NCBI RefSeq assembly: GCF_003013815.1
Contig: NZ_PRLH01000137.1
Location: 62,001-126,000 of the forward strand
Reading direction: 5' to 3'
Length of the DNA stretch: 64,000 nt
Source of the DNA: Cyanothece sp. BG0011
GTDB lineage: Bacteria > Cyanobacteriota > Cyanobacteriia > Cyanobacteriales > Microcystaceae
The notes under the pieces were generated by a model that worked only from the letters and a program-made list of their open reading frames with translations, was not told the DNA's origin and did not search any database. The position numbers and the translations under genes are program-made. Within the stretch, counting starts at the first letter, position 1; every line of letters starts with the position of its first letter. Of this stretch, positions 20,185-45,898 are shown piece after piece.

Positions 20185-21571
20185 ATGAAAACAATCCCCG
20201 CTTCTAAAACTCCTAAATTGATACAACAATTACAATGGATTTTTAACCCAACCCGGTATCTAAAAACGAATCATCGTCGCTATCGAGATATATTTAAAGT
20301 CAAAATGGTCGGTTTTGGGAATGATATTATTCTCACCAGTCATCCTGAGATCATGCAATATGTGTTGACTCATGATCGCAAGCAATTTATCTCTCCGAGT
20401 AAGTTAAATGGCATATTGCGGCCATTGATTGGTGATTCTTCGGTGTTGATGCTTGACGGCGATCGCCATCGTCAACGTCGTCAGTTAGTGATGCCATCGT
20501 TTCACGGGGAACGTCTCAAAGTTTATGGTGACTTGACGATTCGTATTACTGAAGAAGTGATGGAAAAAGTCCCCCACAATCAACCCTTTTTAGCTAGGGA
20601 GATCATGCAGGATATCTCCTTAAAAGTGATCACAGAAGCGGTATTTGGGGTCACGGAAGGGCAACGTTATGAAGAATTACAAGATCGATTAAAAAAAAAT
20701 GCTTGATCTATTTAATTCTCCTGTCACCTCTGCCTTTTTATTCTTTCCCTTTTTGCAAAAAGATTGGGGTCGTTGGAGTCCTTGGGGCCATTTTCTTAGT
20801 CAACGTCAAGCGATCGATGAGTTGATCTATGCAGAAATTAGCGATCGCCGGGCTAACCCTGATCCGAACCGTACCGATATTTTATCCCTTCTTATGTCTG
20901 CAACGGATGAACAAGGGGAGGGAATGAGGGATCAAGAATTAAGAGATGAATTAATGACTCTCTTAACGGCCGGTCACGAAACCACGGCCTCAGCCATGGC
21001 CTGGGCTTTATACTGGATTCATCATACCCCTGAAGTCAAAGATAAGCTAATCGAGGAGTTAAACACCCTTTCCCCCCATGCAGGAGGGATGGATATTTTC
21101 CGTCTGCCCTACTTAACCGCCGTTTGTAACGAAACCCTGAGACTATCTCCTTCTGCCATGTTAACCTTTACGAGAGTGGCTCAAGAAAAGGTTGAGGTAG
21201 CCGGTTACACCTTTGAACCTGAGGATATGATTATGGGATGTATGTATTTAACCCATCTACGGGAAGATTTATATAGCAACCCTGAACAATTTAATCCTCA
21301 AAGATTTATTGATCGTCAATATACCCCTTACGAGTTTATACCCTTTGGTGGGGGGTCCCGGCGTTGCGTTGGGGAAGCTTTGGCACAATTTGAGATGAAA
21401 TTAGTTATCGCCACAATTGTGTCACAGTATCACTTAAAATTAGCCGATACTCAACCCGAAACACAACAAAGACGGGGTGTAACCTTATCACCGGCTAGAG
21501 GGGTGAAAATGATGTTAGAAGGAAAACGCCAACCTCAACCCGTTCGAGAATTGCAATTATCAAAACAATAA
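20185..21571 (+). pseudogene. Cytochrome P450, CYP110-like, frameshifted at a poly-A run
   Basis: Two overlapping frames make one P450. The first, from ATG 20185 to 20706, covers the N-terminal third including DRHRQRRQLVMPSFHGERL. The second, to 21571, has a standard I-helix AGHETT, the K-helix ETLR, and the heme loop FGGGSRRCVG. They join at a run of nine A (20691-20699): with eight A the reading LKKMLDLFN is continuous. Sequence style fits the cyanobacterial CYP110 family, which acts on fatty acids and alkanes; that is family knowledge, not proof. Unlike the P450s at 40-44 kb it keeps the oxygen-activating residues. Confidence 0.85.
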
Positions 21572-30415: not shown

Positions 30416-31684
30416 ATGACCCCTCAATCTTTAACGCCTCATTCTCCTATTCCTCCTGGTTTTAAACAGTCTGAAGTGGGGTTAATTCCTGATGATTGGG
30501 AGGTTAAAAGAATTAAAAATATAGCCCCATTACAACGTGGTTTTGACTTACCGACATCTAAATTAAAAAGAGGTGATTACCCTGTTGTATATTCCAATGG
30601 GATAACAAATTATCATAATACTTTTATGGTTTCTGCTCCTGGTGTTGTAACTGGACGTTCTGGTACAATTGGTAATGTTCATTATGTAACCCAAAATTAT
30701 TGGCCTCATAATACTGCTCTATGGGTAACTAATTTTTATAATAATCATCCTAAATATATTTATTATTTATACAAGCACATTAACTTAGAACGTTTTTGTA
30801 GTGGTTCTGGTGTTCCCACATTAAATAGAAATGATGTACATGATTTATTAATTGCTGTACCACCCACCAAAACCGAACAAGAAAAAATTGCCGCCGCATT
30901 ATCTGATATTGACGAACTCATCGAATCTTTAGAGGAATTAATCACTAAGAAACGTCAGATTAAACAGGGTACAATGCAGGAGTTATTAACAGGGAAAAGA
31001 CGACTTAAGGGGTTTGAAATTAAACAAGGTTACAAGCAAACTGAAATCGGTTTGATTCCTGAAGATTGGGAGGTTAAAAGATTGGGGGATATTGCTGACA
31101 AAAATAAAAATTATAGTTTTACAGGTGGTCCCTTTGGTTCTAATTTAAAATCTTCTGATTATACTTCAAATGGGATAAGAATTATTCAGCTTCAAAATAT
31201 AGGAGATGGAGAATTTAAAAATGAGTATGAATTATTTACTTCATATAGTAAAGCTGATGAACTTTTAACTTGTAATATATATCCTGGTGATATCATTCTT
31301 TCAAAAATGGGTGATCCCGTTGCTAGAGCTTGTATTGTTCCTAATTTCAATAAACGATATTTAATGTGTTCTGATGGTATTCGTTTAGCTGTAGATAATA
31401 AATATTTTAATACTTATTTTATTTATACGGTTATCAACTCATCTATTTTTAGAAATAAAGCAGAGAATGCAAGTACAGGTTCAACAAGAAAACGTATTGG
31501 TTTAACAGAATTACGTCATTTAGAATTGCCATGTCCACTCCTAGAAGAACAAAAAGCGATCGCCGAAATATTAACAGATATGGATGAAGAGATTCAAGGG
31601 TTAGAAGAAAGATTAAAGAAGACGAGACAAATAAAACAGGGAATGATGCAGGAATTATTAACGGGGAGGATTCGATTAATTTAA
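30416..31684 (+). CDS. hsdS: Type I restriction-modification specificity subunit HsdS
   Basis: 422 residues arranged as two similar halves. Each starts with a near repeat (GFKQSEVGLIPDDWEVKR at about residue 15, GYKQTEIGLIPEDWEVKR at about 204), then a target-recognition domain, then a conserved helix ending KQGTMQELLTGKRRL or KQGMMQELLTGRIRL. Two TRDs recognise a bipartite DNA site. The repeated blocks could allow TRD exchange by recombination. The gene is intact, but its HsdM partner is not. Confidence 0.93.
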   Translation: MTPQSLTPHSPIPPGFKQSEVGLIPDDWEVKRIKNIAPLQRGFDLPTSKLKRGDYPVVYSNGITNYHNTFMVSAPGVVTGRSGTIGNVHYVTQNYWPHNTALWVTNFYNNHPKYIYYLYKHINLERFCSGSGVPTLNRNDVHDLLIAVPPTKTEQEKIAAALSDIDELIESLEELITKKRQIKQGTMQELLTGKRRLKGFEIKQGYKQTEIGLIPEDWEVKRLGDIADKNKNYSFTGGPFGSNLKSSDYTSNGIRIIQLQNIGDGEFKNEYELFTSYSKADELLTCNIYPGDIILSKMGDPVARACIVPNFNKRYLMCSDGIRLAVDNKYFNTYFIYTVINSSIFRNKAENASTGSTRKRIGLTELRHLELPCPLLEEQKAIAEILTDMDEEIQGLEERLKKTRQIKQGMMQELLTGRIRLI

Positions 31685-31739
31685 ACATTATCAATACGAT
31701 GAAATTATCGACTAAATTAGTTTACTAAGGAACAAAAAA

Positions 31740-32000
31740 ATGAACAACTCATCTAAAACTATATTTAACTTATCATTAAACCCAGAAATCAAACAACAAT
31801 TACAAACAGTCGCTAAACTCACTCATAAAACTGAACAAGAACTAATTTTAGAAGCTTTAGAAAAACATCTTAAAGAACTTAGTAAACCCCAAAATTGTTA
31901 CGATCTTGCTATTCAATTAGGTGTGATTGGAGTCGCCGAAGAATTACCCCCAGATTTAAGCACAAATTCCGATTATTTACAAGGATTTGGTCAATTATGA
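31740..32000 (+). CDS. Ribbon-helix-helix-like antitoxin without its toxin
   Basis: 86 residues with an RHH-type N terminus (IFNLSLNPEIKQQLQTVAKLTHKTEQELILEALEKHL) and a C-terminal tail that would bind a toxin (VAEELPPDLSTNSDYLQGFG). Its TGA overlaps an ATG (ATGA at 31997-32000) that opens a PIN toxin, but that toxin is reduced to fragments. It lies between hsdS and hsdR. Confidence 0.8.
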   Translation: MNNSSKTIFNLSLNPEIKQQLQTVAKLTHKTEQELILEALEKHLKELSKPQNCYDLAIQLGVIGVAEELPPDLSTNSDYLQGFGQL

Positions 32001-32109
32001 GTCAAAATATTCTTGTCGATACAAGTCCACTGGTAGCCATACTATAGATAGAAAAGATTTTACAATTTATAGAATTAAAGGAAATCAAGCATTACAGATT
32101 ATTCCTTAA
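31997..32109 (+). pseudogene. PIN toxin with a large internal deletion
   Basis: The N terminus MSQNILVDTSPLVAIL, which has the first active-site Asp, runs from 31997 to a stop at 32045. The following bases, in another frame from 32041, read DRKDFTIYRIKGNQALQIIP and stop at 32109, a typical PIN C terminus. About 100 residues in between are gone. The antitoxin just upstream is intact. Confidence 0.65.
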
Positions 32110-32154
32110 CTAAAATATAATGAATCTAAATAATGAATAATTACTGAACAAATT

Positions 32155-35100
32155 ATGAAAGTATCCAAACCCGAAAGAGTCAGCCAAAAGCGAATTATTA
32201 AACTGTTCTGCGAAGAACTCAATTATACTTATTTAGGTAACTGGCAAGATCGTCAAAACAATAGCAATATAGAAGAAGAATATCTAACTACTTACCTCAA
32301 AGAAGTGGGTTATACCGACTCTCAAATTACCAAAGCACTTTACACCCTTAGCCGCGAAGCGAATAACCTTAACCGTAGTCTTTATGATAATAATAAAGCA
32401 GTTTATAGTCTTCTCCGTTATGGTATTCAAGTTAAAACTGACCTTAGCAAAAATACAGAAACCATTAAACTAATTAACTGGAAACAATGGGATAAAAATA
32501 ACTTTTATATTGCCGAAGAAGTAACCCTAAAAGGCAACCGTGAACGTCGGCCGGATCTCGTTTTATATATTAATGGTATCGCCATCGGAGTCATTGAACT
32601 TAAAAATAGTCGTGTTTCTTTAGGAAATGGCATACGTCAAAATATTTCTAATCAAAATAAAGAATTTAATCAATGGTTTTTTAGTACAATACAAATTATT
32701 TTTGCAGGAAATGACTCCGAAGGGCTAAAATATGGCACAATAGGCACACCAGAAAAATATTACCTTAATTGGAAAGAAGATATTGAAGATAATAGTCGCC
32801 TCAAAATTGATAAATATTTGCTTAAAATTTGTAACAAAAAACGTTTAATTGAACTGATTTATGATTTTGTTCTCTTTGATGGGGGACAAAAAAAATTACC
32901 CCGTGTTCATCAATATTTTGGCGTTAAATTAGCCCAAGAAAAGATAAAAGAAAAAAAAGGCGGCATTATTTGGCATACTCAAGGAAGTGGGAAAAGTATT
33001 GTTATGGTACTTTTAGCTAAATGGATTCTAGAAAATAATCCTCATGCTAGAGTTGCCGTAATTACCGACAGAGATGAATTAGATAAACAAATAGAAAGGA
33101 TTTTTAAAGATGCAGGAGAAAAGATTCACCGTAGCAGTAGCGGTAGGGATTTAATCGCTCAATTGAGTCAAGCAACCCCTCGCTTACTTTGTTCCCTTGT
33201 GCATAAATTTGGCAAGAAAAATGTTAATAATTTTGAGCAATTTATTAAAGATTTAAAAGCAACCCCTAGCCCTGCTTTTGGGGAAATATTCGTTTTTGTT
33301 GATGAATGTCACCGGACCCAAAGCGGAAAACTTCACCGCACCATGAAAGCTATTTTACCGGATGCTGTCTTTATTGGATTTACTGGCACACCTTTACTGA
33401 AAAAAGATAAACAAACCAGTCAAGAAGTTTTTGGTAACTATATTCACACCTACAAATTTGATGAAGCTGTAAGGGATAAAGTGGTGTTAGATTTAGTATA
33501 TGAAGCCAGAGATGTGGATCAAAATTTAGGTTCTCAAACAAAAATTGATCAATGGTTTGATGTCAAAACTAAAGGACTTAATGACTGGCAAAAAGCCCGA
33601 CTTCGCCAAAAATGGGGAACCCTGCAGCAAGTTCTCAGTTCAAAATCTCGCATGAATCGCATTGTACAAGATATTGTTTTCGACTTTAATGTAAAACCTC
33701 GCCTCAGTGATGAAAAAGGAACCGCTATGTTAGTCGCTTCTAGTATCTACGAAGCTTGTGCATATTATCAACTCTTCCAACAAACTGAATTAAAAAGCAA
33801 ATGTGCCATTATTACCTCTTATAATCCTCAATCTAAAGATATTACTACCGAAGATACAGGGGCAAATACTCAAACCGATAAAGAATTTATTTTTAACACC
33901 TATAGCGAACTGCTGCAAAATATCACCCCACAGTCAAAGATGACAAAAACCGAAACCTACGAAGAAAAAGCTAAAAAACGGTTTATAGAACAACCAGCTA
34001 ATATGAAACTGCTCATCGTAGTTGAGAAATTACTCACCGGATTTGATGCCCCTAGTTGCACCTATCTCTACATCGACAAAAAAATGCAAGATCATGGATT
34101 ATTTCAGGCCATTTGTCGCACCAACCGCCTCGATGGAGAAGATAAAACCTTCGGTTATATTGTCGGTTATAAAGACTTATTTGAAAAAGTCGGAGCAGCC
34201 ATAGGGGTTTATACCTCTGACTTAGATGACAACGATGACGATGATAGTGACCCTCAAATTTTACTGCAAGATCGCCTTACCAGAGGACGAGAACGGTTAG
34301 ATAATGCTCTAGAAGCCATTATATTGCTCTGTGAACCCGTCGAACCCCCAAAAAGTGAACAGGACTATATTCACTATTTTTGTGGCAATACTGAAATTAA
34401 GAGCGACTTAACGGAACGAGAACCCCAACGAACCGCCTTATATCGGACGACTGTCGCTTTAATTCGTGCCTATAGCAATATTGCAGACTCCTTAGAAGAA
34501 GCCGGTTATACCCCTCAAGACATCCAACGAATTAAACGAGAAATCAAAAACTATAGTGACATCCGAGAGATTATTCGCCTCGCCAGTGGTGAAACCTTGG
34601 ATCTCAAAGCCTATGAAGCCGATATGCGCCATCTCATCGACACCTACATCGAAGCCTCCGAACCCCGCAAAATCTCAGAATTTGATCATCTTCCCCTAGT
34701 GGAACTGATCACTAAAATCGGCATTCATCAAGCGATAAATAGCCTTCCGAATGGAATTAAGAAAAATCAAACCACTGTCGCAGAAACCATTGAAAATAAT
34801 GTCCGTCGCCAAATTATTCAAGCCAATCTTTATGATCCTGCTTATTATGGCAAAATGTCCACTCTTTTAGATGAACTTATTGAACAGCGCAAACATCAAG
34901 CGATCGCCTACGAAGAACTCTTAAAACATTATGCACAATTAGCCCAAAAAATTAAACAAGGAAAAGAAGACGACACCCCCGCGGCGTTGGATACCCCTGG
35001 AAAATTAGCGATATATAATAATCTTGAGCAAAATCTCAACCTCGCCCTTAAAATTGATGCAACGGTTAAAACAGTTAGAGCAGACGACTGGCGAGGCAAT

Positions 35101-35208
35101 ACAGCCAAAGAAAACACCATTAAAGGAGCTTTATTTGCCCTTTTAAATCAAGATATTGCTGAGGTTGAGCGTATTTTTCTCATCATTCAAGAGCAGCCCG
35201 AATACTAA
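32155..35208 (+). CDS. hsdR: Type I restriction endonuclease subunit HsdR
   Basis: 1017 residues. The N-terminal nuclease domain has the PD-(D/E)xK-type signature with Asp134, Glu148 and Lys150 (RPDLVLYINGIAIGVIELK). The motor follows with Walker A TQGSGKS (Lys280), DEAD-box VDECHRTQSG, the FTGTPLL motif III, and the C-lobe with LLTGFDAP and QAICRTNRLDG. The C-terminal helical region binds HsdM/HsdS. The gene is intact and in the usual order, but should be silent as a restriction enzyme if no other HsdM supplies the complex. Confidence 0.95.
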   Translation: MKVSKPERVSQKRIIKLFCEELNYTYLGNWQDRQNNSNIEEEYLTTYLKEVGYTDSQITKALYTLSREANNLNRSLYDNNKAVYSLLRYGIQVKTDLSKNTETIKLINWKQWDKNNFYIAEEVTLKGNRERRPDLVLYINGIAIGVIELKNSRVSLGNGIRQNISNQNKEFNQWFFSTIQIIFAGNDSEGLKYGTIGTPEKYYLNWKEDIEDNSRLKIDKYLLKICNKKRLIELIYDFVLFDGGQKKLPRVHQYFGVKLAQEKIKEKKGGIIWHTQGSGKSIVMVLLAKWILENNPHARVAVITDRDELDKQIERIFKDAGEKIHRSSSGRDLIAQLSQATPRLLCSLVHKFGKKNVNNFEQFIKDLKATPSPAFGEIFVFVDECHRTQSGKLHRTMKAILPDAVFIGFTGTPLLKKDKQTSQEVFGNYIHTYKFDEAVRDKVVLDLVYEARDVDQNLGSQTKIDQWFDVKTKGLNDWQKARLRQKWGTLQQVLSSKSRMNRIVQDIVFDFNVKPRLSDEKGTAMLVASSIYEACAYYQLFQQTELKSKCAIITSYNPQSKDITTEDTGANTQTDKEFIFNTYSELLQNITPQSKMTKTETYEEKAKKRFIEQPANMKLLIVVEKLLTGFDAPSCTYLYIDKKMQDHGLFQAICRTNRLDGEDKTFGYIVGYKDLFEKVGAAIGVYTSDLDDNDDDDSDPQILLQDRLTRGRERLDNALEAIILLCEPVEPPKSEQDYIHYFCGNTEIKSDLTEREPQRTALYRTTVALIRAYSNIADSLEEAGYTPQDIQRIKREIKNYSDIREIIRLASGETLDLKAYEADMRHLIDTYIEASEPRKISEFDHLPLVELITKIGIHQAINSLPNGIKKNQTTVAETIENNVRRQIIQANLYDPAYYGKMSTLLDELIEQRKHQAIAYEELLKHYAQLAQKIKQGKEDDTPAALDTPGKLAIYNNLEQNLNLALKIDATVKTVRADDWRGNTAKENTIKGALFALLNQDIAEVERIFLIIQEQPEY

Positions 35209-36109: not shown

Positions 36110-37894
36110 CTAAATAGCGATACTCTGGGGAATATGAGAAGGCTGTAAATAAACGTAAGGCGTTTTACCTTGTTGTTTCAGGTTATTGTTACGTTCTTTC
36201 AACTTAGATTCAATCCCTCTCAACTCTTTTTTAAAGTCCTTAAAAGCCTGTTTATCCCCCTCTTGTTTGAAGGGGTTAGGTAAGGTTAAAAGACTCTTGC
36301 TAGTAATGGGAGGAAGAATGGTTAAGACTTTAACTAAAACAATTTGTTTAATGGTTTGTGTTCGTCCGGGTAACCATTTTAAAAGTATTTTTTCTCGTTC
36401 TTCTTCACTCTCAACAGTATAAAGAGAAGAGAAGGGTTCATACAACGCAAATGGCATATTTGCTACCCATGCACCATAATCATACTGTCCGAAATTAACC
36501 GCAGCGTGTTGCGTGGTTGCTAAGAAAATCATTGTTGTGACAATCTCAATTAAATCGTCAACATTATTGAGTTTTCCAGTGAGTTGAGACGCTTTTTCTG
36601 GGGGAAGTAATCCTTTAATCGTTCCTGCGTCGGGGGAAATTAATTCATTTTTCCAAGCTTGTAATTGGTCGTCATTTTCAACCCCTTGATTATCTTTGTA
36701 GTGATTTTTAATGACATCACTAACATACTTTTTCGTCGCATTCCACATCAACAGCGCATCATCTTTATAGTAGTAGTTAGGTAAGTCTTGAACCTCACGG
36801 GATTCTAAACTATAGGGTAAGGCTTTTTTGTAGAATTCCCAAGGTTTACCTTGATAGTTAGTCACTAACCCTTTACCCCAATAAGCTCGACTTAATAATT
36901 CATTGGAGCTAGTGTAACCTAAAGCCCCCGTAGCATCAAAAAAGCCACCTCTTCCTAAGAAAACAGAACGCGCCATATAATTAATAGCTAAGGTGTCAAA
37001 AAAGTGGGGTTTCAGCAGTTGATAAAGAATGTGATCGGGGGTTAAAGTTCGATAGGTACTAACGGTACAAACTTCAATAACTAAATGAGTATCCAGTAAA
37101 TGAGCAATAATCCCTTGATAGGCAATATCAGTGGCAGAAACAGCTAACTTAGCAGCTTTCCATTCCGCTTTAGAAGATTTAGGAGTGAAAATTTCTGGAA
37201 TTTCAGGGTGAGCATTGGGATCATGTTTCTGCTTAATTTTGATAGCAACGGGTAGTAACTCTTCTTTCTCATTGAGATAAAATAAACACAAAGGAGAGCA
37301 GGTATAACGCCCTAATTGATCTTCTCGCGCAGAATCAATAATGTCGTCAAAAATTTCGTAATCAACTAGATAGAGTTTATCCTGATCGAACGCTGTTTTA
37401 ACAGAAAAATTATCACCTAAATAGGGTTTAAGATGGTCTTCTGTTACAGGAAATTTACTACCAACTCCGATATCTTCTTGTTTACATTTTCTCATCAAAA
37501 CAGGGTTAAGACCTTGTAAAAATTGCCGACCAAATTGTATATCTTCTTCCCACTTATCGGCGATTAAAGGTTTAGGTAAAAGGGTAAAAGGTCTGAAAAA
37601 ACCAGTTAAATCTTTTAACTTTTCCCAGTAATCGGTAGGTGCTAACGATGCAATTAATCCAAAATCAGCAACCCCTTTAAATTCAATTCCATGTTTAGCA
37701 AAATAACCAAAAATATGAGAAATTTGCGCTAATAATAAACTTAAGACAGAAATTAGAGCCGTAAAATCAAAAAAGAAGATTTTAAAAGGACTAAATCCTT
37801 CTCCTTTCGGAAGTCCAATGACGTAAGGTGGTGCGCCAGGATAACGCACTTTTGGATCAACCCATTGAAAGGTATCTTTAGGGTTACTGGTCAT
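36110..37894 (-). CDS. Lipoxygenase (iron-dependent fatty-acid dioxygenase)
   Basis: 594 residues from the ATG at 37894 (MTSNPKDTFQW), preceded by AAGGAG; the frame to 37921 adds nine residues. It shows the lipoxygenase core without a PLAT domain: FLQGLNPVLMR, the first iron histidines in AHLLDTH (His265, His270), LKPHFFDTLAIN, then QHAAVNFGQY (His463, Asn467), and the C-terminal iron-ligand isoleucine (Ile594). It should add O2 to polyunsaturated fatty acids to give hydroperoxides. Regio- and stereospecificity cannot be read here. It is the last gene of the minus-strand cluster, separated from the other lipoxygenase by a 900-base repeat-rich gap. Confidence 0.92.
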   Translation of the reverse strand: MTSNPKDTFQWVDPKVRYPGAPPYVIGLPKGEGFSPFKIFFFDFTALISVLSLLLAQISHIFGYFAKHGIEFKGVADFGLIASLAPTDYWEKLKDLTGFFRPFTLLPKPLIADKWEEDIQFGRQFLQGLNPVLMRKCKQEDIGVGSKFPVTEDHLKPYLGDNFSVKTAFDQDKLYLVDYEIFDDIIDSAREDQLGRYTCSPLCLFYLNEKEELLPVAIKIKQKHDPNAHPEIPEIFTPKSSKAEWKAAKLAVSATDIAYQGIIAHLLDTHLVIEVCTVSTYRTLTPDHILYQLLKPHFFDTLAINYMARSVFLGRGGFFDATGALGYTSSNELLSRAYWGKGLVTNYQGKPWEFYKKALPYSLESREVQDLPNYYYKDDALLMWNATKKYVSDVIKNHYKDNQGVENDDQLQAWKNELISPDAGTIKGLLPPEKASQLTGKLNNVDDLIEIVTTMIFLATTQHAAVNFGQYDYGAWVANMPFALYEPFSSLYTVESEEEREKILLKWLPGRTQTIKQIVLVKVLTILPPITSKSLLTLPNPFKQEGDKQAFKDFKKELRGIESKLKERNNNLKQQGKTPYVYLQPSHIPQSIAI

Positions 37895-38085
37895 AGTTTT
37901 AATTACTCCTTTTAATTGCAATTACAATTCATCTACAGTCTGAATACCTGATTTTCCGTAATGACTCGTTATTAACTGCCCCGACTTTAGAAATTGACTG
38001 AAAATATCTGCCTTAGATTCAATAAATCTCTGCAAAGATAGAAAAGTTTTATAATTATTAATCAAAGGACAAATATTAAGTAAGA

Positions 38086-38200
38086 TTAGGGAACGATAAA
38101 AGATGTCTTCTCCTTATCAGCTTGGACATCATTAACCCAAGAATGCCATAAAGTGATGTGATAACTAGCATAACGACATAACTTTTTAAGATTGTTGCTC
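38086..38200 (-). pseudogene. Fragment of a second copy of the TTR-domain lipoxygenase
   Basis: On the minus strand the frame reads NLKKLCRYASYHITLWHSW then VNDVQAD, closely matching NLKEFCRYVVYHVTLWHSW, VNDSQAD around the iron His574 and Asn578 of the protein at 38827-40845. It is cut at its 5' side where a MITE-like end begins (38204) and soon hits a stop. So a second gene of this type once existed here. Confidence 0.75.
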
Positions 38201-38203
38201 TGA

Positions 38204-38231
38204 TAAGTACCTGGACAAAAATAAACGTTAC
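38204..38231. repeat. Solitary end of the MITE-like element
   Basis: 28 bases beginning TAAGTACCTGGACAAAAATA are identical, inverted, to 45529-45556, the right end of the element at 45426-45556. No opposite end is seen nearby, so this is a truncated copy. It abuts the lipoxygenase fragment. Confidence 0.75.
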
Positions 38232-38524
38232 AAGTTGAGATGAGGGAGAAGACAGGAGGCAGGGCAATACTACGCAGGTTTTGCTCAAAACCCTGGTTGA
38301 AACTGCAAGGGAGACGAGCGACCCCGGTCGGGTTCCCCGACAAGCGTGAACGCGCGAGGAGAAGGGAGCTTTCTTGCGGGGGAGAAAACCGAAAATCCAT
38401 CTCCGAAGCTCCTTACTCCCTGCTCCTCTGCTTACTTTAAAGAAAAGTCAAAATCCAAAACCTAGGCAGTATTGGGAGGCAGGGGGCAGGAGTAGGGTTA
38501 AAGCTTGGTTTACAAATGTTTATA
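38232..38524. other. Non-coding, repeat-like segment
   Basis: Part of the 930-base gap between the lipoxygenases. The stretch 38250-38440 is GC-richer than its surroundings and includes CTCCGAAGCTCC and CTGCTCCTCTGC motifs shared with other intergenic regions (about 8905-8940). I see no real gene. Confidence 0.5.
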
Positions 38525-38635
38525 CTCATATCTTGCACCTTCGATTAAACCCCCCACACCCCCCACACCCCCCTTTATAAGGGGGGCAGGGGGGGTAGGG
38601 GCAGGGGGGTAGGGAATAGGGAATGGGCAATGGTA
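38525..38635. repeat. Left arm of a long inverted repeat (partner 45780-45898)
   Basis: CTCATATCTTGCACCTTCG, then CCCCCCACA units and the palindrome CCCCCCTTTATAAGGGGGG, then G-rich units with GGGGCAGGGGGG. The reverse complement of the same series lies at 45780-45898, exact over 19 bases at one end and over about 33 bases in the C-rich core. Confidence 0.8.
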
Positions 38636-38747
38636 TTTATTTTTGACTGTAACTGATTGAGAATTGATTCTCTCTAGTTTATTATTTGGTTTTTATGTAC
38701 TGGTGCAAGATGTCAGTATACAGTTTACTTTGCATCATATAAATGCT

Positions 38748-38775
38748 CTAGGGGTCAAAAACTTTTGACCCCTAG
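38748..38775. repeat. GGTCAA/TTGACC-family palindrome, copy 4
   Basis: CTAGGGGTCAAAA and TTTTGACCCCTAG form a 13-bp perfect stem around AC, 52 bases beyond the stop of the lipoxygenase gene at 38827. It is placed as a 3'-end hairpin. Confidence 0.8.
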
Positions 38776-38826
38776 GAAAATGTCTTGAAAAACTTTGAAG
38801 TTTTAGATCACAATTCAATGTGGAAG

Positions 38827-40845
38827 TTAAATGTTGATTAGGGCGCGAATATTACCAATATCGTAGTTCAAATCAGCAAACTGATCCTTGTAACCTGATA
38901 ATGTGATTCTGAACTCTTCAGGAATATCGTCATCCTCATTTTTGAGAATATAGCCATATTTAATGGCAGTTAGAACATTAACCATGTAGATCACATTGGT
39001 TGCTTCTAAGATAGGTGGGGCAATGTTAGGATCATCTTCACTACCAAAACTTCCATTGCGTAATGCTAAGGAACTGTAGAAAATATCCCCTCCTTCATCA
39101 GCCTGAGAATCATTAACCCAAGAATGCCATAAGGTGACGTGATAGACGACATAACGACAGAATTCTTTTAAGTTTTGGATATCTGTCTCATTGGGTTTAT
39201 CTGAGGTGGTAATGGGTCGAGTGGCTTTTACTGTACCATTAACTGTCGCTCTAGGAATATCTGCTTTATCAAGCTCATTGTAATCATACCAATCGTAATC
39301 AGGATCGGGAGCAGAGTCACAGGGTTCATGAGGTTCATAAGCAACACTGTGTTCAACAATATCATCAGAAAAGCGACGAATTTCTATCCATTCTTTGAGG
39401 ATTTCTTCTTGATAATCTTCAAAAAATTCATCAATATATTCTGTTAATACCTGCCAATAAAGATTAGCAATTTTGGCAAAAGTATGGGTCGCACAAACAG
39501 GTTGACGAGGTTTCCAACCTTTCCAATCATAGGTAGCCATACTTTCTTTACAAATTTGTACCACTGAAGCTGGTGTTAAGGGTCCATTAGTCGTAACTAA
39601 ACCCACTGTGGGGGATACTAATACTTCATCCGCTCGTTGATTTATATTAACTAAACTTTTGAGGTGAGGAGCTAAGATCAAACGAACGGGATTATTGCGT
39701 AAGTTACGAAAAGCAGCGATGGTGTATTGTTCCATCTGTAAATGAGCTTTAATATAATGCTCAATCATTTCTGCGGCAAAGAAGCTATTAGTCCGATAAA
39801 TGCGTTTCGCTTGGTTCCATTTTTCCCCATCATTGGGCGTATAAGTAACCGCTTCTTTTAAGGGAGAATGGGGGGCAATAGAATCAGGATAACGACTTTG
39901 AACTTTAATGGCTGTCGGAACTAAATTATCTCCTTTTAATTCAAAAAATGCCTCGACATTATTGAGGTCGTGGTCATCATCTTTTTCGTAGTCATTCCAA
40001 TTAAATTCGGTCTTGAAGAGATTAGGATTGGTTTTATTTCGCTTCAATAAACGGGGGTTCATCCCATTCAAAACCCGTGACACAAAATATTCATCGCTAC
40101 GGCTATAACCTGGCTTGTTTTGGTCTAATTTGATGGTTAAATTAGGGGGATAAGCTGCTTGAATTTCTGATAAAGTCAGTTCGTTGGGGTTGAGGGTATG
40201 AGTAATAACGTGCTTAGCTTTAATGGGAACTAAACTACTGGCTGCATCATATCCAGCAAGGGTACGACCCACAGAATAATCATCGGGTGTCCCTTCTAGT
40301 TCACTGAAAAATAAACGAGCAAAATGACTATCGGGTTTGTATAACCAGTAAGGCACTGAACAAGTCCCAAAATCATATTCTTTTTGCTTGACATTATCTG
40401 GCCCTTTGATAATATAGGCAATCCGATAGGTAGGAACAGGCTGATCATCACTATCAAAAGCAATGCGATTATCTAACAATCTTAACTCTAAATCAGGGGT
40501 ATCAAGAAACCCTGCACTTTTGGGATCATAGTAAATGATAAATTTCCCATCATAATCAGTGATTCCTGTCCCTAAATAATCCCCAGGTCTGCCAATATCC
40601 CTGTCCCATAATTCTAACTGAATATTGTGTAAGGGTTTATTAGTATCACTGAAAACTAACTTTCCAGTGACTTTGTTGAGTTGATCTAGGGGTTTATTAA
40701 ACTTCTGTTCTTTAAGTTGAACAATACTTTTTTTAGCGGCTTTTTCGGCTTTCTTTTTCCCTAAAGCACTATCAGCCACTTTAATCCCTAAAACTTGCTT
40801 GAATTCACCGACAATTTTGCCGATTTTGCTTTCATTTTCTGCCAT
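38827..40845 (-). CDS. Divergent lipoxygenase with an N-terminal transthyretin-like domain
   Basis: 672 residues. Residues ~58-125 (VTGKLVFSDTNKPLHNIQLEL, W-DRDIGRPGDYLGTGITDYDG) look like a transthyretin-like beta-sandwich. The rest follows lipoxygenase landmarks: SRVLNGMNPRLLKR, then HYIKAH (His363, His368), HSWVN (His574, Asn578) and a C-terminal isoleucine (Ile672). All five iron-ligand positions are thus conserved although the sequence is far from the 36110 enzyme. It should be a fatty-acid dioxygenase, but isomerase or lyase activity is possible. Start at ATG 40845 after AAGGAG. The P450 gene ends 79 bases upstream. Confidence 0.8.
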   Translation of the reverse strand: MAENESKIGKIVGEFKQVLGIKVADSALGKKKAEKAAKKSIVQLKEQKFNKPLDQLNKVTGKLVFSDTNKPLHNIQLELWDRDIGRPGDYLGTGITDYDGKFIIYYDPKSAGFLDTPDLELRLLDNRIAFDSDDQPVPTYRIAYIIKGPDNVKQKEYDFGTCSVPYWLYKPDSHFARLFFSELEGTPDDYSVGRTLAGYDAASSLVPIKAKHVITHTLNPNELTLSEIQAAYPPNLTIKLDQNKPGYSRSDEYFVSRVLNGMNPRLLKRNKTNPNLFKTEFNWNDYEKDDDHDLNNVEAFFELKGDNLVPTAIKVQSRYPDSIAPHSPLKEAVTYTPNDGEKWNQAKRIYRTNSFFAAEMIEHYIKAHLQMEQYTIAAFRNLRNNPVRLILAPHLKSLVNINQRADEVLVSPTVGLVTTNGPLTPASVVQICKESMATYDWKGWKPRQPVCATHTFAKIANLYWQVLTEYIDEFFEDYQEEILKEWIEIRRFSDDIVEHSVAYEPHEPCDSAPDPDYDWYDYNELDKADIPRATVNGTVKATRPITTSDKPNETDIQNLKEFCRYVVYHVTLWHSWVNDSQADEGGDIFYSSLALRNGSFGSEDDPNIAPPILEATNVIYMVNVLTAIKYGYILKNEDDDIPEEFRITLSGYKDQFADLNYDIGNIRALINI

Positions 40846-40924
40846 GATTGTGACTCCTTGTAAATCGATTTAATGGTTTTAACGTTGACAAAAGCCCTGA
40901 TGGAATTGCTCAAATGCTGCTAAT

Positions 40925-42331
40925 TCACCCCTTAGCTTGAACAGCCAAGGGAAAACAAGCTCCATTCAAGATTTCAGGGGATCTCGTTCCTAATTGGAAA
41001 GAGGCTTTATAGGGGGTGGTTTCATCGAACTTTGTCTGGACTTGAGAGACAAAGGTTGCTAGGGCTAATTTGATGATAAATAATCCAAAATATCTGCCGA
41101 CACAAATTCTTTCACCCCGTCCAAAGGGGAAAAAATAGTCGCTATCGAGTGGGTTGGCAGCACGAGTGGCTTCGTCCCAACGCTCAGGATTATACACCAA
41201 CGGATCGGGCCAATAACTAGCATTTCGTTGCAAACACCAACTACTAATAAATAGGGGTGTATCCGGGGGAATTTGATAACCCGCAAAAGCAATGGTTTTT
41301 TCCTTATGGGTATTGCGGGTAAAAAATGCCACTGGGGGTAAGAGTCTCAAAGATTCTAAAAGACATTGTTCTAAGAGTAAACATTGCTCTAAATCTTCGA
41401 GGGTGAGAGAATCCCCCGGTAGACTCTTAACTACATTTTCCAAACGCGATCGCCATTGAGGATTTTGATCGAGTAAGTAGAGGGTATTGGTTAACCCTCC
41501 TGGGGTTGAAAAATTGGCACTGAAGTAAATTTCAGCAAACACATGAGCGATCGCTTGTTCGGATAATTGGGAGTCCCCTTGGCGAATCATCAAGCGGAGT
41601 AAATCAGGCCCGGTGGGGTCATTTTTCGCTTCTTGAACGATCTGGTTAAACAGGGCAAACCAGCGCTGACTAGCTGCTTGATACTCAGGTTCTGTGGGTT
41701 CTTCGGGATAGGAACCGCGAGACTGAAGACGCTGATCGGCGATTTTCGCCATCATTAAGTAATCTTCAAAAGCTTGATCCCCTAAAACTTGCCCCACCGT
41801 AGCACGGGCAAATCCGTCAAAGATTAGCCTTTTCATGGCAGGGAAAAAGGGAAATGAGCCTTGAGTTGAGCGAGTCACCAGGTTTTGGATGGTTTCGCTA
41901 AACTGATGCTTAAGAATGGGAACTTGCGCCCCTAACCATTCCTGAACATCGCCTCTGCTTAAGGGATGATTTTGGCGAATAAAGCTCCAATCTTTGTCTT
42001 GATGGGGAAAAAGAAAGAGACTATCTTCGGTCATCATCGGGCTTGCAGCCTGTTTGAGTTTATCCTTATAGAATAATTCTTGCCGAGAGATCAGCACTTC
42101 CTCAATCAATTGGGGATCGTTAACCACTAAAGCGGGTTGACTCAATAGCCAAACTTGCGTGACTCCCCCATACGTTTCCCCATACTTGGCACAGACTTCC
42201 CAAGGCAAGGCTTTTTTGAAGTCTAGAGCATTACCAAAGGGAAAACGGGGAGGAGGCCCAGGAATCCCCTCAAAGGGCTTCATTTTCTGCCCATGTATCA
42301 GCTTAAAAAGACTATGCAGTAGATCAACCAT
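40925..42331 (-). CDS. P450-fold heme protein with atypical I-helix (A)
   Basis: 468 residues with the P450 frame: proline-rich FEGIPGPPPRFPFGN, K-helix ESLR (Glu326-Arg329), meander NPERWDEA, and heme loop FGRGERICVG with Cys410. The I-helix reads YFSANFSTPGGLTNT (about 269-283), so the usual acid-threonine pair is replaced by Phe-Ser. The same kind of change marks P450s that rearrange hydroperoxides without O2 or reductase (CYP74 allene oxide synthases, hydroperoxide lyases). With two lipoxygenases alongside, a fatty-acid hydroperoxide substrate is likely but inferred. Confidence 0.87.
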   Translation of the reverse strand: MVDLLHSLFKLIHGQKMKPFEGIPGPPPRFPFGNALDFKKALPWEVCAKYGETYGGVTQVWLLSQPALVVNDPQLIEEVLISRQELFYKDKLKQAASPMMTEDSLFLFPHQDKDWSFIRQNHPLSRGDVQEWLGAQVPILKHQFSETIQNLVTRSTQGSFPFFPAMKRLIFDGFARATVGQVLGDQAFEDYLMMAKIADQRLQSRGSYPEEPTEPEYQAASQRWFALFNQIVQEAKNDPTGPDLLRLMIRQGDSQLSEQAIAHVFAEIYFSANFSTPGGLTNTLYLLDQNPQWRSRLENVVKSLPGDSLTLEDLEQCLLLEQCLLESLRLLPPVAFFTRNTHKEKTIAFAGYQIPPDTPLFISSWCLQRNASYWPDPLVYNPERWDEATRAANPLDSDYFFPFGRGERICVGRYFGLFIIKLALATFVSQVQTKFDETTPYKASFQLGTRSPEILNGACFPLAVQAKG

Positions 42332-42370
42332 CTCTCTTTTTGTTTGATTTTTCGTGATTACAGTTTTCTG

Positions 42371-42396
42371 TAGGGGTCAACGGCCGTCAACCCCTA
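42371..42396. repeat. GGTCAA/TTGACC-family palindrome, copy 5
   Basis: TAGGGGTCAACGG and CCGTCAACCCCTA form a stem with two mismatched pairs, overlapping the stop codon of the P450 gene at 42394. This is the least perfect copy. Confidence 0.7.
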
Positions 42397-43713
42397 GCGA
42401 TCGTACCCAACGACAAAACGGGTGGGGATATAGCCTTGATACTTAACTTTGCCTTCCTCCCCAGGAAGCAATTTTAACCCTGGCCGCAACAGGATTTGTT
42501 TAACCACTTCAGGAACCACAACCCCGGCAATGTGTTCACCGCCACAGGTATGACTACCGTAACCAAAGTGCATATAGTTATACTGAGGACGGTCAATGGA
42601 AAATTCATCAGGATCTTTAACAATAGCCGGATCAAACATGGCTGAACCTACCCCCGCTAAAACAACGCTGCCACGAGAAATGATCGTTTCTCTGGGGGTT
42701 CCGGCCGCTAGGGTATAATCAGCTTCACAAAAACGTACCAGAAAGGGACTAAAAGGATTAAAACGAACGGCTTCCCAAACATACTTATCAAACGTCTCGT
42801 CATCATTAGCTTTCGCTGCTTCTAAGGCTTTTTGAAAGATTTCAGGACGGTTGAGTAATTGGTCTATGGCCTGAGTAATAACTTGTGCAGTTCCTTCAAT
42901 ACTACCTACTAAGAAAATCATCATGTGGGCAATAATTCTCTCTTTCGAGAAGGGAATATCGGGAGGAAATTTAAGATTAGCTAACCGTGTAAAAACATCT
43001 CCAGGTGCAGTGTAATTCTCTTCCGTTGTTTGAGGTTGGAAAAACTGGGATAGATAAGTGAAAAAGTTGGTGGATTTTTCCGTTTCTTTAAATTTCTTTT
43101 CCTCAAATAAATCAGTAAGATAAGCCCGCATCTCGTTACTTGATTGAACCGAAGCCTCATGAATTTTAGGATCGTTTGTTAAGTTTCTAAACATATCGTC
43201 TTGGGTTGTTTTTGCCCAACGATACATCGTATCTAAATCCGGCCCAGGAAAGCCAAAGTAATCACCACAAAGTCTGATGGGAACGAATTTCGCTAGGTCA
43301 TGAACCACCTCAATTTTTTGGTTTGTTGCTGATTTATCTAAGGCAGATTTGGCGATTTCTCCTGCCATTTTCCTAACCCTTGGCAAATCCTCCAGGGGTA
43401 ATACGGATCTCATTATTGACTTTTCACGCCAGTTATGATCTGAATTATCTCTGGCTAACATACAAGGGCCAAAAACGGGGTCCATTTTCGGAGCAAATGC
43501 TCTCACAGAGAAGAATTCTGAGCGAGATAAAACCTCTTGAACATCGGGAAATAAACTAACTAAAACAAATTTAGGTGTAATAAAAATAGGACGGTTTTCT
43601 CTTAATTCTTTAAATAAACCTGACCAATCAGTCCAAACTCCCTGATTAATAACTTTAACTTTATCTTCAAGGTTTTCCGTGGGAATACTATCATACCTTT
43701 CTAGGTAAGACAT
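42394..43713 (-). CDS. P450-fold heme protein with atypical I-helix (B)
   Basis: 439 residues, clearly P450: K-helix EAVR (Glu314-Arg317) and heme loop FGYGSHTCGG with Cys390. The N terminus is short and soluble, with no membrane anchor. The I-helix reads VGSIEGTAQ: the acid (Glu273) is present but the catalytic Thr position is Gly274. The protein differs strongly from its neighbour at 40925. FGxGxHxCGG is also seen in fungal and bacterial fatty-acid peroxygenase or diol-synthase P450 domains, from memory. Peroxide-driven chemistry on lipoxygenase products is a reasonable guess. Confidence 0.85.
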   Translation of the reverse strand: MSYLERYDSIPTENLEDKVKVINQGVWTDWSGLFKELRENRPIFITPKFVLVSLFPDVQEVLSRSEFFSVRAFAPKMDPVFGPCMLARDNSDHNWREKSIMRSVLPLEDLPRVRKMAGEIAKSALDKSATNQKIEVVHDLAKFVPIRLCGDYFGFPGPDLDTMYRWAKTTQDDMFRNLTNDPKIHEASVQSSNEMRAYLTDLFEEKKFKETEKSTNFFTYLSQFFQPQTTEENYTAPGDVFTRLANLKFPPDIPFSKERIIAHMMIFLVGSIEGTAQVITQAIDQLLNRPEIFQKALEAAKANDDETFDKYVWEAVRFNPFSPFLVRFCEADYTLAAGTPRETIISRGSVVLAGVGSAMFDPAIVKDPDEFSIDRPQYNYMHFGYGSHTCGGEHIAGVVVPEVVKQILLRPGLKLLPGEEGKVKYQGYIPTRFVVGYDR

Positions 43714-43781
43714 AATATAGACCTCATTTTTTGGGTTAAATTGCAGAAAGGTTCAAGACAAAATCTATCGTTGATATAGTG

Positions 43782-44177
43782 CTAAGAAACCGCATCTACA
43801 TCATGAATACATAGAACAACAATTCTATAGTCATCCTCTACTTTACGCAGTGTATAACTAGCTCCAAAAGTAGCTAATATCTGTCCATCTTTGCTGTAGC
43901 GAGTAGCTACGGTACTAACAATTCCTACACTGTCACTCAGTAATTTCACGTTTAAAGGACCGGTTTCAGTTCTGTCGTAGTTCTGTTTCTTTAAATCAGC
44001 CATAACCTTCCTAAAAACCAGCCATAACCCTAACCGATTTTTGATGGGGGTAACTCTTTGTGTAATGAGAATTGATGGATAGTGATAAAAAGGAAATAAG
44101 AGTCTTGGTTGAAGTTTGGGAATTATATCTCTATATTGCTCAATTTTGCTTCTTAATTGCTCTGCTTGATCTGTCAT
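43782..44177 (-). CDS. Small NTF2/SnoaL-like protein
   Basis: 131 residues. PFYHYPSILITQRV, a central helix (LWLVFRKVMADLKKQNYD), SVGIVSTVATRYSKDGQIL and GASYTLRKVEDDYRIVV follow the cone-shaped NTF2-like fold. Such proteins may bind or convert small hydrophobic molecules (SnoaL-type cyclases, isomerases) or serve as accessory proteins. Here it lies between the DUF2235 hydrolase and the P450 gene on one strand, 68 bases from the latter, so it may act on or carry an oxylipin intermediate. No catalytic residues are asserted. Confidence 0.7.
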   Translation of the reverse strand: MTDQAEQLRSKIEQYRDIIPKLQPRLLFPFYHYPSILITQRVTPIKNRLGLWLVFRKVMADLKKQNYDRTETGPLNVKLLSDSVGIVSTVATRYSKDGQILATFGASYTLRKVEDDYRIVVLCIHDVDAVS

Positions 44178-44258
44178 CAGAAGATACTCTCCTAAAATGG
44201 TAAAACGGTTAAAATTGGGATGCTTTCTATTAAAGGCTATACAAAACAGCCCTATTGC

Positions 44259-45272
44259 TCAATTTTGGAAAATTTTATTGAGTATTTTTTCCAGATTTTT
44301 CGGTCGATAGTCTGCAAATTGTTTCAGTCTTTCAAGGGTACTATCATGGAGTTCTTCTAGATCATCCCCGACCTCACGGAGCTTAATTCCTGCTAATTTA
44401 TAGAACCCTGGATCATTGTTAAATTGGCATTGGTGATCCGGTTCTACCCCTGTGATAATCGCACTGATGTCAAATTCTAATCCTAATCCTAGTTCTCCAA
44501 TGGAATCAATCATCCATTTTAAAGCCCCGTCGGAAAGCCCTCGATAAGCCTCTGTTCCACCACCAACGCAACCATGATCTCCAGGAAACCATTTTTGCAA
44601 AAGTTGTTGATTTGGGGCGTGGGGATTTTTGCTCATCAGCGTCACATCAAACACTTCGCGAATTTCGTCGATCGCTACGGCGTGTATGGCATTCTGGACT
44701 TCTCGGTTTAATTTTGTGTCATAAAAGGCATAACGCCGATGTAACCAAGGTTGAAAGATTTTGAATAAGGGTAGAATGGGAATTCCTAAAGCGCCTACCG
44801 TATCAAAACAACCGATTAAGGTGATGGGAACGCGATCGCCGTAAGTTCTGCGGTATTCAACGGCCTCATTATCTGTAGGTTTAATATCTCGGTTGCGATA
44901 CAGTTCATAAGCTTCTGCTGCGTTGGTCACATAATGACGTTTTACTAGCCCTGAACAATAAATCATTCCTGCTAGACTTCTCACGGTATATGCACCCCGA
45001 CTAAAGCCAAACAGATAAATTTCATCCCCTGGAACATAGTTCAGACAAAGAAACCGATAACCATCTTGAATATTGCGATCAATGCCAACTCCGGCTGCAC
45101 CTCCTGATAGTTTTTGACTTTCGGTGCCAATTCCGGCATCGTAAAACACAATTTGTTGTGTCCCATCATCGGCGACGGGTTTAATGCCTTCAGTGAGTTT
45201 AACCACATTACTAGGATAAGAACTTTCTAAATCTTGCCAAGTTCCGTCACAACAAACTATCAGTCTTTTCAT
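44259..45272 (-). CDS. DUF2235 alpha/beta-hydrolase, possible lipase
   Basis: 337 residues with the DUF2235 start MKRLIVCCDGTWQD, then VFYDAGIGTE, GGAAGVGIDRNIQDGYRFL and the nucleophile elbow LFGFSRGAYT (Ser91). FDTVGALGIP and WFPGDHGCVGGG are also typical. DUF2235 members include phospholipase effectors (Tle1-like) and uncharacterised hydrolases. As the first gene of the cluster that leads to lipoxygenases, it could release polyunsaturated fatty acids from membrane lipids. That role is inferred from position. Confidence 0.88.
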   Translation of the reverse strand: MKRLIVCCDGTWQDLESSYPSNVVKLTEGIKPVADDGTQQIVFYDAGIGTESQKLSGGAAGVGIDRNIQDGYRFLCLNYVPGDEIYLFGFSRGAYTVRSLAGMIYCSGLVKRHYVTNAAEAYELYRNRDIKPTDNEAVEYRRTYGDRVPITLIGCFDTVGALGIPILPLFKIFQPWLHRRYAFYDTKLNREVQNAIHAVAIDEIREVFDVTLMSKNPHAPNQQLLQKWFPGDHGCVGGGTEAYRGLSDGALKWMIDSIGELGLGLEFDISAIITGVEPDHQCQFNNDPGFYKLAGIKLREVGDDLEELHDSTLERLKQFADYRPKNLEKILNKIFQN

Positions 45273-45425: not shown

Positions 45426-45556
45426 TAAGTAGTCGGACATAAATATAATTAACTGTCTTGAGAAATGTAAACAAGCTGTAACCCCTCTCCCTGCTCCGGC
45501 GCTCCGGCACTCCCCCGCTCACTTGACAGTAACGTTTATTTTTGTCCAGGTACTTA
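45426..45556. mobile_element. MITE-like element, about 131 bp
   Basis: The ends are imperfect inverted repeats: TAAGTAGTCGGACATAAATA at 45426, and TAAGTACCTGGACAAAAATA read from 45556 on the other strand. Both end in TA, which would fit IS630/Tc1-type TA insertion. The interior carries a copy of the CTGCTCCGGCGCTCC repeat and no gene. A solitary end is present at 38204-38231. Confidence 0.6.
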
Positions 45557-45779
45557 GCCCCTTGTTTACCGTGAGTTGGTTTTGCTAGAAAATACCTAAT
45601 CGTCATTGATTCGATTTCCTTACTCACATCTTGCACCAAAACTAATAAACTTAATAATTATGACAAGGTAGTCAATTGTGAATAATTTAGCATCAAAATT
45701 GAACACTTTTGCCTGTCTTGGTGAGCGTTCCCTTGCGCAGATGCGAAGGCGCGGGGTCTCACCGCTCTTGCCTCTTGCC

Positions 45780-45898
45780 TACCCCCCTGCCCCTAACCCC
45801 CCCTGCCCCTAACCCCCCCTGCCCCTAACCCCCCTGCCCCCCTTATAAAGGGGGGTGTGGGGGGTGTGGGGGGTGTTAGCGAAGGTGCAAGATATGAG
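45780..45898. repeat. Right arm of the long inverted repeat (partner 38525-38635)
   Basis: Three tandem CCCCCCTGCCCCTAA-type units precede the palindrome near 45838-45856, then GGGGTGTGG units and CGAAGGTGCAAGATATGAG. Reversed, this is the block at 38525-38635. It lies between psaJ and the DUF2235 gene. Confidence 0.8.

Follow-up and report, generated by a model that had tools for sequence, protein, structure and literature searches.

Do adjacent lipoxygenase and cytochrome P450 genes in a cyanobacterium encode successive steps of one pathway, or are they neighbors by chance? The question is raised by a locus of Cyanothece sp. BG0011, at positions 36110-45272 of the 64,000-nucleotide stretch of contig NZ_PRLH01000137.1 that we analyzed (contig positions 62,001 to 126,000; hereafter the window), which an earlier note had read as a six-gene oxylipin cluster. 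All six minus-strand open reading frames (ORFs) were present in the ORF list of the window, encoding a hydrolase, an NTF2-like protein, two P450s (P450B and P450A) and two lipoxygenases (LOXB and LOXA); the Pfam families Lipoxygenase, p450 and T6SS_Tle1-like_cat agreed with those named in the note, DUF6841 fell below the cut-off, and the locus is confirmed to be real and to lie where it had been placed (Table 1). The oxylipin-type functional cluster stood, but its extent did not: the genes for the hydrolase, the NTF2-like protein, P450B, P450A and LOXB form, in this order, a tight five-gene unit running from 45272 down to 38827 on the minus strand, with spacers of 81, 68, 62 and 79 bp as calculated from the coordinates, and LOXA, which lies 0.9 kb away and is probably an older resident, was rejected as a member. 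We consider it likely that these five genes constitute an operon of exchangeable modules, in part horizontally spread, which would produce oxylipins out of polyunsaturated lipids taken from the membranes of the same cell. According to a genome search, only two lipoxygenase genes are present in this genome, both at the locus, and the eight P450 matches represent about seven genes, P450A and P450B included; since both lipoxygenases and two of the roughly seven P450 genes sit here, a chance grouping is unlikely.

P450 homologues were searched for in 388 Cyanobacteriia genomes, at E≤1e-50 for P450A and E≤1e-40 for P450B. P450A homologues were found in nine genomes, and all nine adjoined a lipoxygenase, of the LOXB type in two cases and of the LOXA type in seven; thus, the P450 tracks lipoxygenase function and not one particular partner. 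Eight genomes contained a P450B homologue, five of them with a lipoxygenase (in a gene run with LOXB in four, with a LOXA-type gene in one, L105), and at L102:1170-4182 and L103:4731-7626 the homologue adjoined an An_peroxidase-family (animal-peroxidase) gene. A search of 59 related genomes at E≤1e-20 yielded P450B homologues in six, with LOXB in the run in five, and at L067:8142-14121 P450B, a DUF1304 gene, LOXB and an An_peroxidase gene stand in a row. Both lipoxygenases solved from Cyanothece sp. PCC 8801 take part in these arrangements: the enzyme at L036 is CspLOX1 (5EK8; 668/668 residues) and sits in a hydrolase-trefoil-P450B-lipoxygenase row, and that at L052 is CspLOX2 (5MED; 569/569 residues), followed by a P450A homologue. 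The term "P450" was not found in the main text of PMC5437038. That the genes are merely neighbors in a variable accessory region, sharing no pathway, would suit the restriction-type genes next door (ORFs 30416-35208, which we take, by recognition and without a family search, to be hsdS and hsdR) and the elements resembling miniature inverted-repeat transposable elements (MITEs) on both sides. The same combinations recur, however, at other sites and in other families, which strongly disfavors this explanation, as do the associations just given and the presence of a same-strand P450 within 600 bp at 18 of 80 further lipoxygenase loci; we hold it to be very improbable.

The active sites bear on what the P450s would do with a lipoxygenase product. 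Both proteins belong to the P450 superfamily, having the ExxR pair (E326-R329 in P450A, E314-R317 in P450B) and the cysteine heme ligand. In the I-helix of P450A, Phe274 occupies the acid position and Ser275 the Thr position, and the acid-alcohol pair of monooxygenases, (A/G)Gx(D/E)T, is absent. The nine P450A homologues all lack the acid and have Ser or Asn in place of the Thr, Asn being confined to L052 and L101 among those aligned; a phmmer comparison with CYP3A7 shifts the helix by one residue with a gap, and the acid is missing in both registers. The genome's four other intact P450s served as a control: three have AGHET, as does its broken P450, and the fourth, L215, is presumably a CYP152-type peroxygenase, judging from its motif. 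Because P450A has no proton-delivery acid and a hydroperoxide-forming neighbor is found in 9/9 cases, the enzyme most likely acts on the hydroperoxide itself. In an ungapped alignment, the distal axial position is Ser in P450A, Asn in the CspLOX2 partner and Gly in P450B; as excerpted from PMC13049297, this residue is Asn in plant allene oxide synthase (AOS) and PGIS, Ile in TXS and Thr in fungal 8R/9R-AOS. CYP74 enzymes carry a nine-residue heme-loop insertion and an axial I-helix Asn, according to excerpts of PMC8124189 and PMC13049297. Neither feature is found in P450A or P450B, with S275 and G274 in place of the Asn, and CYP74 membership was rejected for both.

A competing explanation is that the P450s are O2-dependent monooxygenases which, supplied with electrons by ferredoxin, hydroxylate the lipoxygenase product or a free fatty acid and yield oxylipins without hydroperoxide rearrangement. 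The heme loops are ordinary (FGxGxRxCxG in P450A and FGxGxHxCxG in P450B), the best solved relatives of P450A are ordinary P450s, and the I-helix of P450B retains an acid, E273, with G274 at the next, Thr position. Among 14 type-B homologues, a set that includes L102, L103, L104 and L108, which are not beside a lipoxygenase, E or D was present in 14/14 and Thr as well in eight (acid-Thr-Thr), and P450B could therefore be an ordinary monooxygenase. The cluster contains no redox partner gene, which proves nothing, as a general ferredoxin could serve. What speaks against monooxygenase chemistry is P450A, whose homologues have neither the acid nor the Thr and always have a lipoxygenase next to them, and we regard this explanation as unlikely. 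The statement of the earlier note that both I-helices suit hydroperoxide rearrangement or cleavage rather than O2 activation thus survives for P450A and is not established for P450B: P450A fits the hydroperoxide role well and P450B in part, the case for P450B coming more from its neighbors than from its residues.

The lipoxygenases themselves appear complete. LOXB is of the CspLOX1 kind, its residues 8-672 aligning with the solved structure and the two sequences being 63% identical. As the note had claimed, the iron ligands H, H, H, N and C-terminal I are all in place, at H363, H368, H574, N578 and I672 in LOXB and at H274, H279, H472, N476 and I603 in LOXA; the Pfam Lipoxygenase E value was 3.1e-10 for LOXB (for LOXA, see Table 1). 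According to excerpts of PMC5437038, CspLOX1 and CspLOX2 convert linoleic acid to 9R- and 11R-hydroperoxides, respectively, and the G401A variant of CspLOX1 forms significant 11-hydroperoxyoctadecadienoic acid (11-HPODE). LOXB differs from CspLOX1 in having Ala405 at the position of Gly401, and among the 16 LOXB loci defined below this residue is Gly in 4 (L035, L036, L067 and L069) and Ala in 12. Because Ala405 replaces the Gly of the 9R enzyme, the product of LOXB is not predictable, and a 9R assignment was withdrawn.

To the remaining two genes roles can be ascribed with unequal firmness. The hydrolase matched T6SS_Tle1-like_cat (PF09994) with 268.7 bits against a cut-off of 27, and S91 is present as the GxSxG nucleophile. 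Tle1 proteins have phospholipase activity; in view of this activity, the Tle1-like domain and the class-3 lipase found at two LOXB loci that lack DUF2235, the hydrolase is predicted to provide the lipase step. The NTF2-like protein scored 24 bits against the DUF6841 NTF2-like family, under the cut-off of 27, a similarity that is suggestive only. Within the LOXB loci its gene occurred only alongside P450B, in 5/5 cases (window, L034, L062, L065 and L066). As a component exclusive to the cluster it was rejected: the family is present in 21/310 genomes, with a P450 nearby at only 2 of 20 fetched loci, each reaching about 1.5 kb to either side.

LOXB relatives were drawn from the 59 related genomes, a named genome collection (15 loci confirmed) and the 388 Cyanobacteriia genomes, 10 of which contained LOXB at E≤1e-50; at ≥60% identity, and counting each locus once, the set comprised 16 loci (window, L033, which is the same as L060, L034, L035, L036 and L061-L071). 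An intact lipase-type gene was found at 10/16, namely a DUF2235 gene at eight (window, L033, L035, L036, L065, L066, L069 and L070) and a class-3 lipase without DUF2235 at L071, on the same strand, and at L034. A P450 was likewise present at 10/16: a trefoil-P450B fusion at L033, L035 and L036, the same followed by NTF2 at L034, NTF2 with P450B at L062, L065 and L066, P450B at L067, P450A at L070 (80% identical to that of the window), and NTF2, P450B and P450A together in the window. No P450 was found at five (L061, L063, L064, L069 and L071), and the remaining locus in both counts, L068, is cut by a contig end. The fusions (L033:9304-11034, L034:9140-10864, L035:9651-11378 and L036:8031-9767) begin with a beta-trefoil domain some 158 residues long. 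The P450B of the window lacks this N-terminal domain, whose matches in a search of solved structures were designed beta-trefoils and FRG1 (best E value, 1.9e-5). At one Nostocales site (L062, L064 and L065, and L063 by the same neighbors), flanked by what we take from the translations to be a ctaB-like and a clpC-like gene, the P450 slot is filled or empty depending on the strain. Modules are exchanged between loci. The exact six-gene set was found only in the window among the fetched loci, and sets of hydrolase, P450 slot and LOXB recur in other genera; the outcome that the note had named as refuting its reading, a lack of conserved clustering in relatives, did not occur. The earlier interpretation is mostly right in outline and partly supported; a more fitting description of the locus is that of a mosaic, one case of a partnership between lipoxygenases and P450s that recurs in cyanobacteria.

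Besides the acid conserved in type-B P450s, several observations weigh against the five-gene pathway. The hydrolase was not found at 3/16 LOXB loci (L061, L062 and L067) and its DUF2235 gene is broken at 2/16 (L063 and L064), the class-3 lipase of L034 lies on the opposite strand, and the last residue of LOXB is Val, not Ile, in 7/16. At L105 an ORF whose family is uncertain stands between the P450 and the lipoxygenase, at L101 the lipoxygenase is split over two overlapping frames, a P450B homologue of 32% identity (L104:8775-11888, genome G391) adjoins a RoxA-like cytochrome c, and another of 30% (L108, genome G001) had no oxygenase neighbor in 19 kb. AlphaFold models reached a mean pLDDT of only 33.0 for P450B (6 sequences) and 32.5 for P450A (2 sequences) and were not used. 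NTF2-fold cyclases and epoxide hydrolases exist, and from these a role of the NTF2-like protein in the pathway is guessed.

The history of the locus appears to be composite. The hydrolase of the window is 80-83% identical to those of L033, L035 and L036, from the same family, and 67-70% to those of L065, L066, L069 and L070, whereas LOXB is 79-82% identical to its counterparts at L062-L065 and L070, 72% to that at L066, 65% to that at L069 and 63% to those of the same-family loci L035 and L036. Because the two have different closest relatives, the modules probably moved separately. A pair of MITE-like elements, the sole two exact copies in the window, brackets the five-gene cluster. Across the genome their terminus ATCTTGCACC was counted 132 times, versus once for the reversed control; a search of L033-L036 gave no exact match to it. 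A perfect 28-base inverted repeat also surrounds the cluster (38204-38231 and 45529-45556), its 18-base core occurring seven times in the genome. One MITE-like element lies in the 0.9 kb between LOXB and LOXA together with a relic of the LOXB C terminus, and a direct repeat of 81% identity links 38116-38187 to 39097-39168.

LOXA probably starts at ATG 37894 and not at TTG 37921, as L040, L041 and L044 align from the Met at 37894, and L042 and L043 from five residues further up. In four congeners (L040-L043) LOXA stands at a distance of 0.65-1.8 kb from psaF and no intact cluster is present, so that LOXA was probably beside psaF before the cluster and lies outside the five-gene unit. The gap between LOXA and psaF contains a LOXB scrap in L040, a trefoil scrap in L042 and the start of a DUF2235 gene in L043, with nothing detected in L041; from these scraps it is likely that the cluster once stood at this site in congeners and then decayed. 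On the LOXA stretch of G002 (L044) no psaF was seen, and the cluster of G002 lies on another contig.

For the chemistry, we infer the steps, substrate and products, as well as co-transcription. The Tle1-like hydrolase would free linoleic or linolenic acid from membrane lipid, and LOXB, with O2, would form the fatty acid hydroperoxide; CspLOX1 binds membranes. P450A, and probably P450B, may then convert the hydroperoxide without a reductase to an allene oxide, an epoxy alcohol, a diol or a cleaved aldehyde, and the NTF2-like protein might process what P450B makes, for instance by cyclization or epoxide opening. LOXA may supply the same P450s or act alone. As a whole, the compact gene set resembles a small production line in which membrane fats would become signal-like or defensive compounds. 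Much of this equipment, a Tle1-like hydrolase with hydroperoxide-type P450s beside psaF, would also fit detoxification or membrane repair, in which oxidized lipids would be cut out by the hydrolase, and lipid hydroperoxides arising from photo-oxidation would be broken down by the P450s. A lipoxygenase produces hydroperoxides, however, and in nearly every cluster it was the gene through which the locus was found; the patchy distribution of LOXB is moreover unlike that of housekeeping repair, and we consider a repair function very unlikely.

The partnership extends beyond these P450 types. PF00305 was found in 117/388 genomes, and we examined 80 further lipoxygenase loci, mostly the best-ranked by E value, taken in order and hence not random, with some from the same genus, in stretches of up to 6 kb to each side, some cut by contig ends. 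The P450 profile was built on the P450s collected here, with a single round of extension (E≤1e-6), so that very distant P450s may escape it. Of the 80 loci, 18 had a P450 within 600 bp, in all 18 on the same strand as the lipoxygenase and in 16 downstream of it; in addition, L133 has a P450 at 1.9 kb, and L139 a second, ordinary P450 about 3 kb from the lipoxygenase. The I-helices were aligned for P450s over 400 amino acids (aa), dropping L060, L110 and L111 as copies of L033, L062 and L070 and omitting L133 and the two-piece L119 for insufficient length. Outside type B, the acid was absent from 27/27 lipoxygenase-adjacent P450s (9 type A, 12 type C and 6 type D). Type C has the I-helix IAGTAGTS or nearly so and the heme loop HERxCPG, and adjoins a lipoxygenase at L139, L147, L149, L151, L154, L155, L162, L163 (two in tandem), L168, L173 and L181; for one type-C sequence, 17 solved structures matched, none named CYP74. 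Type D (L125, L126, L145, L158, L164 and L180) has IAxLQGP and RICPGK; a second alignment placed it differently, with no acid in that stretch. Its heme loop has nine extra columns relative to P450A, the same number as the CYP74 insertion given in the excerpt of PMC8124189, but the CYP74 I-helix Asn is lacking, and among the best 60 of 102 solved structures matched by one type-D sequence none was below E 0.005 and none was named CYP74. The chances seem evenly balanced that cyanobacteria hold a large unrecognized set of hydroperoxide-converting P450s, of at least four types and exchangeable beside lipoxygenases or COX-superfamily dioxygenases, with the window operon as a mosaic two-P450 case and P450B as the bacterial equivalent of the P450 that partners a dioxygenase in fungi.

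The general logic is already known. A lipase, a lipoxygenase and a P450 acting on the hydroperoxide are shared with the plant LOX-CYP74 routes (allene oxide synthase and hydroperoxide lyase), from which the locus differs in the CYP74 features described above. Cyanobacterial fusions of a catalase-related AOS with a lipoxygenase likewise join a lipoxygenase to a heme enzyme for its product, and catalase and lipoxygenase domains occurred in one protein at L106 and at L038, the latter with a catalase match just under the cut-off; here, in contrast, the heme partner is a separate P450, accompanied by a hydrolase and an NTF2-like protein. Fungal DOX-CYP fusions (linoleate diol synthase, 8-/9-AOS and EAS) have in common with P450B the HxC heme loop, which the excerpt of PMC13049297 describes as kept in the fusion partners, and type-B P450s are unfused neighbors of the An_peroxidase gene at L102 and L103 and stand in the same run at L067; they differ in that the genes are separate here, usually with a lipoxygenase, and the NQxQ I-helix motif is missing. 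No title or abstract describing cyanobacterial lipoxygenase-P450 gene clusters was found, which, given the limited literature reach, is weak evidence of novelty. If the reading holds, the downstream enzymes missing for both crystallized cyanobacterial lipoxygenases would be at hand, lipoxygenases and P450s would prove to be frequently paired as adjacent genes in cyanobacteria, and the splitting of hydroperoxides by P450s that have or lack the axial Asn could be studied in separate bacterial enzymes. CspLOX1 and CspLOX2 have already been expressed in the laboratory, as part of PMC5437038 reports, which makes the idea testable at once; it bears on the production of oxylipins and reactive aldehydes by cyanobacteria.

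Table 1. Features of the locus, with positions in the window
Feature	Position	Strand	Evidence or remark
Hydrolase, DUF2235 / T6SS Tle1-like alpha/beta, 337 aa	44259..45272	-	PF09994 7.8e-80; GFSRG 89-93
NTF2-like protein, DUF6841-like, 131 aa	43782..44177	-	PF20795 5.8e-5, below cut-off
P450B, 439 aa	42394..43713	-	PF00067 1.1e-15; I-helix G270-S-I-E273-G274-T; Cys390
P450A, 468 aa	40925..42331	-	PF00067 4.4e-51; I-helix S271-A-N-F274-S275-T; Cys410
LOXB, 672 aa, CspLOX1 type	38827..40845	-	5EK8 E 8.9e-302; ligands, clamp residues
ORF with LOXB C-terminal relic	38086..38400	-	34 residues, 62% to LOXB
LOXA, 594 aa from probable ATG	36110..37894	-	PF00305 1.4e-68; full iron ligands
MITE-like element, termini ATCTTGCACC	38530..38711	.	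~115 bp beyond LOXB stop
Second MITE-like element, same kind	45628..45893	.	~355 bp before hydrolase start

Upstream of the cluster lies a gene that we take from its translation to be psaF and, between the two, a small gene that by eye is presumably psaJ-like, after which comes a hairpin resembling a terminator (45980-45948). A promoter scan was uninformative (30 found versus 22.9 ± 4.7 in shuffles), a terminator scan gave 6 versus 9.6 in shuffles, and ten proteins queried against NCBIfam matched no model above the cut-off. Distant LOXB relatives of 37-40% identity (L037 and L072-L074) had no gene of the window cluster nearby; two of them, of 40% (L037:5962-11631 and L073:9419-12960), sit with tautomerase-like and other small genes and have His at the fourth ligand position and Ser as the last residue. 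At L061:8720-15332, two further genes after LOXB are lipoxygenase-like, and one of them encodes laminin-G-type domains. Elsewhere in the window, at 20245-21493, there is a broken ordinary P450 gene of the AGHETT type with internal stops.

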